A DNA stretch of 34,738 nucleotides, taken from an uncultured Chloroflexota bacterium. GTDB lineage: Bacteria; Chloroflexota; Dehalococcoidia; Lucifugimonadales; GCA-002694895. The notes below the pieces were generated by a model that was given only the letters and a program-made list of their open reading frames with translations, was not told where the DNA came from and ran no database searches. This document shows, piece after piece, positions 29,248 through 34,738 of this stretch. The position numbers and the translations under genes are program-made. The stretch lies in the NCBI GenBank assembly GCA_913045935.1, contig CAJWSY010000012.1, positions 1 to 34,738 on the forward strand, in the 5' to 3' direction. How positions within the stretch are numbered: position 1 is the first letter of the stretch; each line of letters begins with the position of its first letter.

Positions 29248-30573
29248 ATGAAAAACAAAATATATTATTCAGCAATATTAATTATAAACATATTAATAAT
29301 TTCTTCTGGTTTTTATTTTATACAGATTAACCAGGAAATTAACTTGAATAATTATTCAGAAACTATAAATACAAAAATAAATGACACAGTATTTTCAGTA
29401 AATGAATCGTTAAGTAAATCTGACCAATATATTAAAACGGCAAACGAAACAATAGAAAATTCTAATTCAGCAATCAAAAAATTAAATGAAGAAAAAACAA
29501 CTCTAGAGAAAACAAATTACGAAACACTTGCCGAGTTACTTGAAGCAAAATCTAAATTAAAAGATGAAGAAAATAAATTGTTAAAATCAAATTTTGAATT
29601 AAGTTCTGAAAAAGAAAAAGCAAAAAGACTTGAAGCTGAATTAAGTTCTGAAAAAGAAAGAGCAAAAAGACTTGAGTCAGAATTAAAATCTGAAAAAGAA
29701 AAAACCGAATATCTTAAAACATCAGCAGATAAATACGATGACTTATCTTCTAAAATTGAAAGTCAAAATAAAATTATTAATAATATTCAAACTCCAAATT
29801 CAGACATCGTAGAAAATACAAAAAGAATAAATAATTTAGAGTCCATTACTTCAACTAGAACTTGGCCATCTGTTATATCATCTGCAAAAACATCAGTGGT
29901 TCGTATTCAAAATTCGTCTAATGGAAAATGTTCTGGATTTATATTCGATATTTCAAACTTAAATCATATAGTAGAACCTGATACATATTATGTTTTAACT
30001 AACAATCATTGCTTCCCAAAAACTGCTTCAGGATCAAGAATATACAATAATATTAAAATTACGGTTGATGAAAAAGAAGTAATTTACAATGCAACCTTGA
30101 TTAATAAATACGCAAACTTAGATATAGCTATCTTGAAATTTCAATCTTCGAAAAACTTAGATCTTTTGAACATTTTGTCTGACGAAGAATATGAAAAAGT
30201 GAAAATCGGTACAGAAATTAATGTTCTTGGTTACCCGCTAGGAGTAAATGTTCTAAGAACAACAAAGGGTGTAGTGTCAGCAAAAATATATAAATCAGGA
30301 ATTGCTGATGGAATAAGATATTCAGAAAGAGGTACTATACAAACAGATGCTGCAATTAATTCTGGTAATTCTGGAGGTCCGGTAATTACATTGTCTGGAG
30401 ATGTAATTGGAATGACAGTGACTGTACTAAGAAAAGCTAATGGAACAGATGTTGAAGGTACTGGTTACGCAATATCTTCTGAACAACTCAATGAATCTAT
30501 TTCATGTTTAACACCTCCATCTAGACAAAAGTTTGTGTCTGGTGGAGGAAATTGTAAATACCTCCCCAACTAA
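29248..30573 (+). CDS. Membrane-anchored coiled-coil trypsin-like serine protease
   Basis: The 441-residue protein has three parts. Residues about 7-26 form a single N-terminal membrane anchor or uncleaved signal. Residues about 45-200 are a long charged coiled coil with a duplicated 14-residue (two-heptad) unit at 118-157. Residues about 205-430 are a trypsin-fold domain with His254 (VLTNNHC), Asp292 (NLDIAIL) and Ser375 (NSGNSGGP), so the catalytic triad is complete. It resembles HtrA/DegP proteases but lacks a PDZ domain, and the coiled coil takes the place of the usual short linker. It should face the extracytoplasmic side, cutting damaged or specific surface proteins. Four cysteines in the catalytic half could form disulfides. 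The MFS gene follows after 9 bp. Confidence 0.88.
   Translation: MKNKIYYSAILIINILIISSGFYFIQINQEINLNNYSETINTKINDTVFSVNESLSKSDQYIKTANETIENSNSAIKKLNEEKTTLEKTNYETLAELLEAKSKLKDEENKLLKSNFELSSEKEKAKRLEAELSSEKERAKRLESELKSEKEKTEYLKTSADKYDDLSSKIESQNKIINNIQTPNSDIVENTKRINNLESITSTRTWPSVISSAKTSVVRIQNSSNGKCSGFIFDISNLNHIVEPDTYYVLTNNHCFPKTASGSRIYNNIKITVDEKEVIYNATLINKYANLDIAILKFQSSKNLDLLNILSDEEYEKVKIGTEINVLGYPLGVNVLRTTKGVVSAKIYKSGIADGIRYSERGTIQTDAAINSGNSGGPVITLSGDVIGMTVTVLRKANGTDVEGTGYAISSEQLNESISCLTPPSRQKFVSGGGNCKYLPN
29599..29724 (+). repeat. Tandem 42-bp repeat encoding coiled-coil heptad pairs
   Basis: Two adjacent near-identical 42-bp units (29599-29640 and 29641-29682) and a diverged third (29683-29724) encode LSSEKEKAKRLEAE-like 14-mers. 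The unit equals two heptads, so changes in copy number would keep the coiled-coil register and only alter stalk length. Confidence 0.75.
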
Positions 30574-30582
30574 GTGTGAACT

Positions 30583-31806
30583 TTGAAAGTAATTAATACC
30601 GTTCCAAATACAAGATTATTAATCAGTACTTTTAGTGTTTGTTTTTCAGTTTTTCTGTTTACAATTGGACAAGGCGCTACTAACCCTATACTTCCTATTC
30701 TAGTACAAAACTTAGGAGCCACAACATCAATGACTGGTTTTGTTGTAGGGATATTTGGGGCGGGGCGATTTTTAACAAATTTACCCGCTGGATTTTTTGC
30801 TCAAAAATTTGGTAAAAAACCAATATTAATTATCGGACCTGCAATAGCATCAATAGGATATTATTTAACTGGATATTTTGATTCAACTGGGCTTATATTA
30901 ATATCTAGATTAATTACAGGATTGGGAGGAGGAATACATTTCGTTGGTGCAGGAATATATTTAAGAGAAATTTCCACATTAGATAATAGAGGAAGAATAT
31001 TGAGCCTGCAAACTATATCAATATTAGTTGGCCAAACCGTAGGCCCGATAGTAGGAGGATATATTGGTGAAATTTATGGATTAAACAGCCCTTTTGTTTT
31101 TGCTTCAGTAGCGTTAATATTTGCAATTTTTCTTATATTAACAACAGTAATTGAACCACAGTCAAAATTATCAGAAAAAAATAAAACTAAAAAAGACAGT
31201 ACAAAAAATGAAAATATTCTAAATGTTATTTTGATATTTATCAAATCAGGATTAATTCCTATAGGATTAATGACTGTGTCTACATTTTTTCACAGATCAG
31301 GAGGACGATTTACTGTTGCACCACTGCTAATAAAAAATAAAGGTTTTTCAACATCCAATATAGGTACATTTTTTAGTGTCACATCTCTTTCTCAACTAAC
31401 ATCTTCTTCATTATCGGGTTATTTAGTAGATAAATTAGGCAGAAAAAAATTAATAATTCCAGGTGTTTTAATTATATTGATTTCATTGTTTATGTTTAAC
31501 AAATCTGATAATTATCAAATGATATTATACGTTGCAATACTATTTGGAATTGGAGAAGGTGCGTTAAATGCATCTACAAATACTCTTTTTGCTGACAAAG
31601 CACCAAAAGGATACGAAGGGCTTACGATGGGCCTTTTAAGAACTTTTGGAGATCTAGGTTTTATGATCGGCCCGCCTATTTTAGGATTTATAATTCAAAA
31701 ATGGAATTATAGTTCTGCATTACTTACCGACGGAATAATATTAGCAGTATGTTCTAGCTTGGTAATTTTCTTTACAGCAGAGACAAAAATTAAAAAAGAT
31801 TATTGA
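30583..31806 (+). CDS. MFS transporter, drug/sugar-efflux type
   Basis: The 407-residue protein has about 12 membrane segments and the MFS motif A in loop 2-3 (GFFAQKFGKKPILIIG, about 70-85) with a related DKLGRKKLIIPG in loop 8-9. A charged central loop (about 192-212) separates the halves. The first helix ends with TIGQGATNPILPILVQNLGA, as in many multidrug or metabolite efflux carriers; the substrate is unknown. The start is TTG at 30583, 9 bp after the protease stop, and no ATG precedes the first helix. It is probably cotranscribed with the protease. Its stop codon lies inside the hairpin of the terminator at 31803-31843. Confidence 0.85.
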   Translation: MKVINTVPNTRLLISTFSVCFSVFLFTIGQGATNPILPILVQNLGATTSMTGFVVGIFGAGRFLTNLPAGFFAQKFGKKPILIIGPAIASIGYYLTGYFDSTGLILISRLITGLGGGIHFVGAGIYLREISTLDNRGRILSLQTISILVGQTVGPIVGGYIGEIYGLNSPFVFASVALIFAIFLILTTVIEPQSKLSEKNKTKKDSTKNENILNVILIFIKSGLIPIGLMTVSTFFHRSGGRFTVAPLLIKNKGFSTSNIGTFFSVTSLSQLTSSSLSGYLVDKLGRKKLIIPGVLIILISLFMFNKSDNYQMILYVAILFGIGEGALNASTNTLFADKAPKGYEGLTMGLLRTFGDLGFMIGPPILGFIIQKWNYSSALLTDGIILAVCSSLVIFFTAETKIKKDY

Positions 31807-31853: not shown

Positions 31854-34738
31854 TTATTTTAATTTAAGTTTAAAGTTACCAAAAATACTGGTTGGGATTT
31901 TACTTACTGTTGGTTTTTGAATTTGTATTGACACATCGGATTTTGCATCTTTAATTGCATCTAAAGATGCTTTGTCAGCATTGAAAAAATTCGCACCTAA
32001 ATTATCAACAATGGAAACTTTCTTGTCATCTTTCAAATCTGCAATTTGCGTACCTTGTACGCCACTCATCATTGAAGATAATGAATCAGTTCCTAAAGAT
32101 TTGACGTCATTGACATCAATTTTATCTACCATAGTAACTAGCTTGTCAGATCCAAGGTCTGTTATTTGCTTAGGATCTATACCAGATGCTAGTCCAACAA
32201 TTTGATCACTAGCTAATGTTTGAATGTCATCTTTTTCCATTGCTTTAGCCATACCCTTTGCCTTATCACTACCAATTTCTTTTAGTGTATCACCACCCAT
32301 AACTTTAGCCATGGTCGCTACTTTGTTTCCACCAAGGTCTTTAAAGTTATCGTCATTTAAATTTTTAGCAATATCAGCCGCTTTATCTGATCCTAAAGCT
32401 GCTATGTTTGTAGGATCCATTGTCTTTGTCATATCTACTAACTTAGCACCACCTAAATCTTTCATTGCATCTGGCGGTAAAGTCTTAGCAATATCTACTA
32501 ATTTACCACCACCTAAATTCTGCATATTAGCTGGATCTAAATTCTTAGTAATATCTACTAGCTTATTTGCGCCCAAAGCCTGCATATTAGTTGGATCTAA
32601 ATTCTTAGTAATATCCACTAATTTAGCACCACCCAAATCTTTCATTGCATCTGGCGGTAAAGTCTTAGCAATATCTACCAACTTACCTCCTCCTAAGTTT
32701 TGCATGTTAGTTGGATCTAAGTTCTTTGTTATATCCACTAGCTTAGCAGCCCCTAGTGCCTGCATATTAGTTGGATCTAAGTTCTTTGTTATATCTACTA
32801 ATTTACCTCCACCCAAAGCCGCTATATTAGCAGGATCCATAGTCTTAGTTATATCCACTAGTTTTGCACCACCTAATGCAGCCATATTATTAGCATCCAT
32901 ATTTTTAGTCATATCAGCTAGTTTTGCTCCACCTAGAGCAGCCATATTAGTGGGATCTAGGTTTTTAGTCATGTCAGCGATTGCAGCTCCTCCCATTATA
33001 GAAAAAGAACCTGCATCTAAAGTGGTTGCTATATCTACAAGTTTTCCTGCACCCAATGCAGCCATATTATTAGCATCTAAATTTTTAGCCATACCTGCTA
33101 AAGCTTTTCCGCCCATAGCTTGCATATTAGCCGGGTCTAAGGTCAATGCAATATCTTTAATTTTACCAGCACCCAATACAGCAAAGTTATTTGCATCCAT
33201 ATTTTTAGTCATGTCTACTAATTTTGTTGCTCCTAGTCCTGTTAATGCAGCTGTATCTAGCGTTGCTGTCATCCCAGCTAATGCACTTCCTCCCATCGTA
33301 GCAAAGTTTGCAGGATCCATAGCTTTCGCCATATCTAAGACTCGTGTTTGATCAAGAGCTTTAAAGTTATTAACGTCCATGTTCTTCGTCATATCTGCCA
33401 ATTTACCTCCGCCTAGACCAATTAAGCTTGCTGGATCCATTGTTTTTGCCAAATTTGCAACTGCTCCTCCACCCATAATTTGGAATGCTCCTGCATCCAT
33501 TGTCTTAGTCATGTCTACTAATTTCGCATCGCCTAAAGCAGCCATATTGTTTGCGTCCATATTCTTAACCATGCCACCCAATGCTTGTCCACCCATAGCT
33601 TGGAAATGAGTAGCATCCATTGTTGCTGCCATGTCTTTAAGTTTAGTTCCACCTAGTACAGCAAAGTTATTTGCATCCATATTTTTAGTCATGTCTACTA
33701 ATTTTGTTGCTCCTAGTCCTGTTAATGCAGCTGTATCTAGCGTTGCTGTCATCCCAGCTAATGCACTTCCTCCCATCGTAGCAAAGTTTGCAGGATCCAT
33801 AGCTTTCGCCATATCTAAGACTCGTGTTTGATCAAGAGCTTTAAAGTTATTAACGTCCATGTTCTTCGTCATATCTGCCAATTTACCTCCGCCTAGACCA
33901 ATTAAGCTTGCTGGATCCATTGTTTTTGCCAAATTTGCAACTGCTCCTCCACCCATAATTTGGAATGCTCCTGCATCCATTGTCTTAGTCATGTCTACTA
34001 ATTTCGCATCGCCTAAAGCAGCCATATTGTTTGCGTCCATATTCTTAACCATGCCACCCAATGCTTGTCCACCCATAGCTTGGAAATGAGTAGCATCCAT
34101 TGTTGCTGCCATGTCTTTAATTTTACCAGCACCCAATATTGCAAAGTTGTTAGCATCCATATTCTTAGTCATGTCTACTAATTTTGTTGCTCCTAATCCA
34201 ATTAAAGTTGAGTTGTCCAGGGTTGCAGTCATACCTGCTATAGCTTGACCTCCCATAGCCTGGAAGTTATTTCCATCCATGGTCTTAGCCATATCTAAGA
34301 CTCGAGTTTGATCAAGAGCTTTAAAGTTATTAACGTCCATGTGTTTCGTCATATCCGCCAATTTACCTCCGCCTAGACCTATCAAAGCTTGCTGGTCCAA
34401 AGTCTGTGCCAAATTTGCAACTGCTCCTCCACCCATAACTGAAAACGCATTTACATCCATTGTCTTAGTCATGTCGAGTAGCTTATTATTACCCAAAGCT
34501 TTCATATTATCAGTATCTAAATTCTTAACCATGCCTCCCAATGCTTGTCCTCCCATTTTTTGAAAATGAGTAACATCCATTGTTGCTGCCATATCTTTAA
34601 TTTTATTTCCTCCAAGAGCCTGGAAGTTATTTACATCCATATTCTTTGTCATGTCTGCAAGTTTAGCTCCACCTAATGCCTGGAAGTTATTTGCATCCAT
34701 GTTTTTGGTCATGTCTGCAAGTTTAGCTCCACCTAATG
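31854..34738 (-). CDS. Giant 20-residue-repeat protein, N-terminus beyond the window
   Basis: The frame is open through the right edge; 960 whole residues are visible and the first in-frame ATG (34712) lies inside a repeat, so the true start is off-window. The visible protein is 46 back-to-back 20-residue units with no insertion or deletion, then a 41-residue tail rich in Lys, Ile and Pro ending in an alternating Lys-Leu stretch. A typical unit is ALGGAKLVDITKNLDPTNMQ: a helix start at DPxN, a Gly-Gly turn, and a second helix with Leu, Met or Ile every three to four positions, suggesting a short two-helix solenoid. Units near the C-terminus are the most diverged. No signal peptide, sorting signal or catalytic motif is visible. 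I do not know its function; surface structure, scaffold or ligand-binding solenoid are all open. Confidence 0.85.
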   Translation of the reverse strand, partial: LGGAKLADMTKNMDANNFQALGGAKLADMTKNMDVNNFQALGGNKIKDMAATMDVTHFQKMGGQALGGMVKNLDTDNMKALGNNKLLDMTKTMDVNAFSVMGGGAVANLAQTLDQQALIGLGGGKLADMTKHMDVNNFKALDQTRVLDMAKTMDGNNFQAMGGQAIAGMTATLDNSTLIGLGATKLVDMTKNMDANNFAILGAGKIKDMAATMDATHFQAMGGQALGGMVKNMDANNMAALGDAKLVDMTKTMDAGAFQIMGGGAVANLAKTMDPASLIGLGGGKLADMTKNMDVNNFKALDQTRVLDMAKAMDPANFATMGGSALAGMTATLDTAALTGLGATKLVDMTKNMDANNFAVLGGTKLKDMAATMDATHFQAMGGQALGGMVKNMDANNMAALGDAKLVDMTKTMDAGAFQIMGGGAVANLAKTMDPASLIGLGGGKLADMTKNMDVNNFKALDQTRVLDMAKAMDPANFATMGGSALAGMTATLDTAALTGLGATKLVDMTKNMDANNFAVLGAGKIKDIALTLDPANMQAMGGKALAGMAKNLDANNMAALGAGKLVDIATTLDAGSFSIMGGAAIADMTKNLDPTNMAALGGAKLADMTKNMDANNMAALGGAKLVDITKTMDPANIAALGGGKLVDITKNLDPTNMQALGAAKLVDITKNLDPTNMQNLGGGKLVDIAKTLPPDAMKDLGGAKLVDITKNLDPTNMQALGANKLVDITKNLDPANMQNLGGGKLVDIAKTLPPDAMKDLGGAKLVDMTKTMDPTNIAALGSDKAADIAKNLNDDNFKDLGGNKVATMAKVMGGDTLKEIGSDKAKGMAKAMEKDDIQTLASDQIVGLASGIDPKQITDLGSDKLVTMVDKIDVNDVKSLGTDSLSSMMSGVQGTQIADLKDDKKVSIVDNLGANFFNADKASLDAIKDAKSDVSIQIQKPTVSKIPTSIFGNFKLKLK
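31980..34738. repeat. 60-bp tandem repeat array (46 units) with 480-bp and 180-bp super-repeats
   Basis: Counting back from 34739, units of exactly 60 bp run to 31980. A higher-order 8-unit super-repeat of 480 bp occurs at 34140-34619, 33660-34139 and 33180-33659, plus a diverged half copy at 32940-33179. A smaller 3-unit (180-bp) duplication with Leu-Pro-Pro-Asp units is seen around 32401-32760. G+C here is clearly higher than in neighbouring genes (28 of 60 in one counted unit), largely owing to Gly/Ala/Asp-rich coding. Confidence 0.93.
33177..34120. repeat. Identical 464-bp direct duplication within the repeat array
   Basis: Positions 33177-33640 and 33657-34120 appear identical base for base, offset by 480 bp. 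Identity ends abruptly on both sides, where the copies differ by several bases. This includes synonymous positions, so it reflects recent duplication or gene conversion and not protein-level selection. An assembly artefact is possible for such a repeat. Confidence 0.9.

Follow-up and report, generated by a model that had tools for sequence, protein, structure and literature searches.

A 20-residue repeat array at the contig edge

The window, by which we mean the whole stretch of 34,738 nucleotides that we analysed, is the entire contig C12 of a 1.33-Mb metagenome-assembled genome (MAG) that is 76% complete. It ends in a reverse-strand gene with an open frame of 960 codons that reaches the contig edge. 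Because the window is the whole contig, the 5' end is missing, and the gene does run past the window, as had been claimed. An ATG at 34712 falls within the array; it is probably not the real start codon. As for the missing 5' half, no other contig of the same MAG has the repeat. From the contig edge inwards, the gene comprises:

31854..34736, reverse strand: open reading frame (960 codons and a stop codon) for the 20-residue-repeat protein, open to the contig edge with the 5' end cut
34680..34736, reverse strand: 19 residues from one more unit, which the contig edge interrupts (from cutting in 20-residue steps)
31980..34679, reverse strand: 45 complete 20-residue units, consensus ALGGxKLxDMTKNMDxxNFx, with two short predicted helices each (20-residue steps, lag identity, and AlphaFold2)
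33660..34079, reverse strand: units 11-17, copy one of a 420-nt identical block, within an 8-unit superrepeat
33180..33599, reverse strand: units 19-25, copy two of the same 420-nt identical block
31980..32399, reverse strand: units 39-45 (the last seven), the C-terminal cap, conserved position by position between genomes where the interior is homogenised instead
31857..31979, reverse strand: non-repeat C-terminal tail with low model confidence, ending in TSIFGNFKLKLK (sequence and AlphaFold2)

In 20-residue steps, the protein consists of 19 leading residues, 45 full units, and a 41-residue tail, with zero insertions or deletions. The initial annotation had described forty-six units without an indel: the absence of indels held up, and the count did not, as there are one partial and 45 full units, of which units 44 and 45 have diverged. 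Residues 920-960 are non-repeat; the tail ends in TSIFGNFKLKLK, similar to the F(F/S)GxxLF-type termini found in relatives. The self-identity of the protein at a lag of 20 residues is 0.377, as compared to a mean of 0.090 and a maximum of 0.123 in 1,000 shuffles. Scores of 0.31-0.60 are reached at lags that are multiples of 20, and no other lag exceeds 0.13. A longer period, of 8 units (160 amino acids), is superimposed with an identity of 0.60, and the DNA of units 11-17 and of units 19-25 is without any difference over 420 nt. This seven-unit block is either a recent duplication or an assembly error. Since the two copies are identical, the exact number of units in the window gene hinges on the assembly.

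Such identical blocks could be mis-assembled, and the antisense frame is open too, which would fit a low-complexity, non-functional, or spurious reading frame or an assembly artefact. We consider this explanation very improbable. Independent relatives are present in 23 other genomes, the C-terminal cap is conserved, the flanking genes are conserved in two sister genomes, and strong purifying selection contradicts it. The relatives in the sister genomes (L025, from a MAG of a Chloroflexi bacterium, and L026, from a Dehalococcoidia bacterium) have last units that correspond one to one with those of the window, and both loci keep the four neighbour genes that we tested, including a convergent MFS transporter at 30583-31806. 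Over the last 160 aligned codons, the window gene and these two relatives of the same genus differ with dN of 0.09-0.13 and dS above 1; because dS is saturated, only "dN/dS well below 0.1" can be quoted. The window ORF is a selected protein under strong purifying selection and not a chance frame. Compared to the gene of L025, its nearest relative, the window gene has three additional units midway along the array. The remaining shared part is colinear, so the array changes by whole units.

Two other reading frames deserve mention. Inside the repeat gene, on the forward strand, there is an antisense ORF of 375 codons (32224-33351) whose translation itself matches the repeat; it is probably a by-product of periodic codon use. 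At 29248-30573, the window encodes a coiled-coil-like protein with an N-terminal hydrophobic segment, which is found in the same place in the two sister genomes at 52-66% identity, as compared to 58-84% for its neighbours.

Relatives and a lipoprotein gene partner

A profile of the C-terminal units (A3) detected the repeat protein in 24 out of 250 genomes from the window's order. In a sample of 400 genomes from the phylum, which had few genomes of this order, it found only the window's own genome. The nearest named relatives are from Chloroflexota MAGs, which is where the initial annotation had suggested looking. A viral origin and viral spread were considered and rejected, as a search with the window protein found no relative in viral contigs. 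Nearly every copy of the repeat gene is cut by a contig end. The complete relatives (from G243, G050, G005, G231 with two, G227, and G215) have 487 to about 1,197 residues; the window gene is cut at the edge, so the description of its product as "giant" is unproven.

Relatives with an intact 5' end share a layout of signal peptide, low-complexity segment, and array. Signal peptides, which we called by eye rather than with a predictor, are present at the start of the repeat ORF in, for example, G005 (complete at 695 amino acids), G050, G082, G085, G215, G110, G028, and G037. The G243 protein has a hydrophobic N-terminus with no obvious cleavage site. Among complete and truncated relatives, the low-complexity segments vary (GGNQ, PPDMG, VYEEP, or PAPAP). 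From the signal peptides in relatives with an intact 5' end, we predict that the repeat protein is secreted, which favours the surface or secreted role that had been proposed for it.

For 12 repeat genes of the 20-residue type, the 5' end could be read, and every one of them comes immediately after a lipoprotein gene of the same orientation (G005, G050, G085, G048, G026, G082, G110, G215, G227, two in G231, and G243), and in each case the two genes are separated by tens of bases or overlap. (In G231, two lipoprotein-repeat pairs are arranged in tandem, at L092:1468-8228.) The lipoprotein has a Pro/Thr-rich linker (PTPTP) and a domain that ends in GGLIGAWxC...VQIRFDxxLDNFxC. Across 18 aligned partners, the lipobox cysteine that follows the hydrophobic signal is invariant, as expected for a bacterial lipoprotein. 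Comparisons of the domain with Pfam and with PDB sequences gave no recognised family; a PsbP-like fold came up for 1 of the 18 members only and was not significant (E 0.055).

Of the 250 genomes from the order, 39 gave a match to a profile of the lipoprotein domain (A5), and the phylum sample gave no match beyond the order; both proteins occur in 16 genomes. The assemblies themselves point to what follows the lipoprotein gene. A contig end lies within 1.7 kb downstream in 30 of 41 cases, where about 4 would be expected, and upstream in 3 cases. Downstream ends are what we would expect if a repetitive gene follows the lipoprotein. In nearly every readable case, the ORF that starts downstream encodes a secreted low-complexity or repeat protein. 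There are a few departures from this arrangement: in G223, the order is reversed, with the lipoprotein gene (L089:3218-3901) downstream of the repeat gene; one lipoprotein copy in G040 (C33) looks unpaired; and the partner in G234 (L142:1118-2083) is a secreted protein of 321 residues in which no repeat is clear and which may be a degenerate or an ancestral version. We also considered whether additional neighbours are conserved, and rejected this, as the genes that flank the cassette beyond the lipoprotein differ between genomes of different families.

The repeat protein is normally one half of a two-gene cassette with the lipoprotein; in the window, any signal peptide and the upstream neighbour of the gene would lie beyond the contig edge. 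The cassette is not a universal feature, as only a minority of the genomes gave a match. The window's genus is a special case: all 5 of its genomes lack a match to A5, even at E ≤ 10, and among carriers of the repeat, the lipoprotein was detected in 16 of 21 outside this genus as compared to 0 of 3 inside it. That is more misses than chance easily gives. Since nothing there matches A5, the partner may have been lost, may have diverged, or may be unassembled. Our impression is that the window gene had the same lipoprotein partner as its relatives.

The secreted, repetitive protein and its pairing with a membrane lipoprotein would also suit a component of an S-layer or another lattice in the envelope. 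The Chloroflexota are considered to be monoderm, and some have multilayered envelopes (PMC13319060). We view a lattice component as unlikely, given how few of the 250 genomes from the order have the repeat protein (24) or the lipoprotein (39), and given that the length and composition of the repeat protein are very variable, unlike those of a constitutive S-layer.

The variation in composition is illustrated by the repeat protein of G026 (L028:1-3270), which is extremely acidic, with FEDDQLYGFVDNMDWEDFDDIG units, while the window protein is rich in Lys and Asn; the core is the same. Strong charge differences between lineages, together with identical units that would be multivalent, could indicate some unrelated function, such as binding to minerals, metals, or ice, or recognition of self and non-self, with the array providing multivalency. 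This seems quite unlikely to us: there is no direct sign of any of these functions, and we identified no conserved metal-binding motif.

Predicted fold and comparison with known repeats

It had been suggested that the array is a solenoid of short helices, and the structure predictions agree. For residues 600-960, with an input alignment that combined L025, L026, and segments of the window protein taken in register, AlphaFold2 gave a mean pLDDT of 88 (about 96 over the array) and a pTM of 0.82. In the model, each unit forms a helix of about 9 residues and a helix of about 7 residues, and the units stack in a regular alpha-solenoid. Modelling of all 960 residues gave the same architecture, with a best pLDDT of 87.5 and a pTM of 0.61; the five full-length models ranged from 52 to 87.5, with the four others at 52-78. 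AlphaFold2 can be over-confident on perfect repeats, as demonstrated for beta-solenoids (PMC11795689), so the predicted fold needs an independent check.

The pattern of hydrophobic residues offers an independent argument for a short-helix alpha-solenoid. At positions 2, 7, 10, 14, and 19 of the unit, a strongly hydrophobic residue is found in 90-100% of the units of three family members and in 62-100% of those of a fourth (the 62% is position 7 in G005). This core is kept even though, over the C-terminal region, some of the compared members share no more than about 21% identity with the window protein. From the models and the conserved core, the 20-residue unit is predicted with good confidence to be a short-helix alpha-solenoid.

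Comparing the predicted structure to known structures, which the initial annotation had proposed as a check, led to no characterised family. Foldseek, run against PDB and viral libraries, gave generic solenoids only (TM at most 0.32); the lack of a closer match in these libraries carries no evidential weight. The best structural matches, from VIA, were the armadillo arrays of importin-alpha and beta-catenin, with Z at most 9.3 and an rmsd of 9 Å over about 315 residues; such Z values are common for repeats. The grooves of these armadillo arrays bind extended peptides, so a binding superhelix is worth weighing: a cell-surface receptor that captures a ligand, either peptide or polymer, and that the lipoprotein anchors. 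The strong dependence of the solvent-facing residues on lineage (Lys/Asn-rich in the window, Asp-rich in G026) would fit with this as well. But the structural matches are generic in both TM and Z, the interior units are homogenised rather than individually specialised, and we identified no conserved pocket residues, so we think that a binding superhelix is unlikely. The likeness to Armadillo and HEAT proteins would be one of stacked helices in a superhelix, generic in score and rmsd. Their units have about 40 residues and longer helices, and no Armadillo or HEAT family of Pfam was listed for the window protein at E ≤ 1.

More generally, searches of Pfam, NCBIfam, and PDB sequences with the window protein gave only summed or sub-threshold matches or none, and explain nothing about the array, which thus lies outside the catalogued repeat families, as had been claimed. 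AnkX_ins (PF22170), the single Pfam match to get just past its cut-off, reached 27.7 bits for the whole protein, with a cut-off of 27; it is probably not the true family, as no single stretch passes and the G005 relative has E 0.49. The N domains of MgtE (the intracellular domain, PF03448) and FliG (PF14842) have short helices and LDPxx-type helix starts in common with the repeat, and they gave weak summed matches in one relative and in the window protein, below the curated cut-offs and with no significant stretch. Specifically, MgtE_N was not listed for the window protein at E ≤ 1 and scored 22.9 bits in G005 (cut-off 25.9, and no stretch passes), while FliG_N scored 15.4 bits for the window protein (cut-off 25). 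Both domains are cytoplasmic and come from membrane or flagellar proteins.

The initial annotation had also raised the possibility of a recognition array like that of TAL effectors. There is a superficial likeness, as both units have a helix, a Gly-containing turn, and another helix. TAL-effector repeats have 33-35 residues per unit and a variable recognition position (PMC3978159). In contrast, the window unit has exactly 20 residues and no match to the TAL-effector family, the interior units are homogenised, and the relatives are secreted, to judge by their signal peptides. We rejected both TAL-like and LRV-like repeats, for which there was no family match.

A match to a sequence in the PDB turned up through relatives with a different unit length. 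In family f28 (G142, G143, G163, G167, and G168), the unit has 16 residues (NFDPNAVGGFNADQFA) and the lipoprotein partner is unchanged; in G066, the unit has about 21 residues. (The 16-residue repeat protein of G167, L134:1970-2731, appears to begin with a lipobox of its own.) The G168 protein matches HeliScrew4 (PDB 9zem) over 103 residues with no gap (E 6e-10), and both have a core spacing of 5,3,5,3. The 20-residue profile finds HeliScrew4 weakly (E 0.011). The window unit differs from it, with 20 rather than 16 residues and a spacing of 5,3,4,5,3, so the 16-residue register of HeliScrew4 is present in G168 and not in the window protein; we compared HeliScrew4 by name and sequence only, and it was absent from the structural matches listed. 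The complete G168 protein also matches the ALTTAQ repeat (PF20080) at 47.8 bits as a whole protein (cut-off 26.4), although no single stretch passes. The window protein is below the listing level for ALTTAQ (E ≤ 1), and a genome search for this family found none in 247 genomes of the order, while the control genome matched.

Judging from the spacing of the core, the 20-residue unit is the 16-residue pattern plus one helical turn. The shared operon and the shared core pattern suggest that the two kinds of unit have a common ancestor.

A putative surface rod and its implications

We favour, with moderate confidence, the view that the repeat protein is a secreted alpha-solenoid that serves as a surface fibre or spacer and is associated with the lipoprotein. 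Each 20-residue unit would contribute two short helices that pack via the five hydrophobic positions, and a stack of dozens of units would form an extended superhelical rod with the conserved C-terminal cap at its end. In the relatives, the protein would begin with a signal peptide, followed by a flexible low-complexity segment. The co-encoded lipoprotein would be anchored in the cytoplasmic membrane and would bear the Pro/Thr-rich linker and the conserved domain. The rod could then project through and past the envelope of a monoderm cell, with a reach that is set by the number of units and that changes by whole units. Physical attachment of the rod to the lipoprotein and its display on the cell are inferences on our part, as is the biological purpose of the cassette.

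A broader proposal, which we put forward tentatively, is that this is a new surface-display system of one order of Chloroflexota, in which a conserved lipoprotein is combined with a fast-evolving solenoid of short helices. The reach and the surface chemistry of the solenoid would shift by the gain and loss of whole units, and the unit itself, with 16 or 20 residues depending on the lineage, would vary in length by one helical turn, with no change of partner.

As far as sequence searches can tell, neither the repeat protein nor its lipoprotein partner matches a catalogued family, although the 16-residue relatives match HeliScrew4 (PDB 9zem), and our literature searches found no published description of the repeat family. 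Repeats break the contigs of short-read assemblies, which is probably why the cassette was overlooked. The lipoprotein is a non-repetitive handle that can be used to find the system in other genomes. If our interpretation is correct, then the 20-residue unit would be among the shortest units of two-helix solenoids. It would also suggest that a repeat can lengthen by one helical turn while its core is kept, which would be useful for understanding and designing repeat proteins. And it would mean that a type of bacterial surface protein has gone unnoticed across one order of uncultured Chloroflexota.
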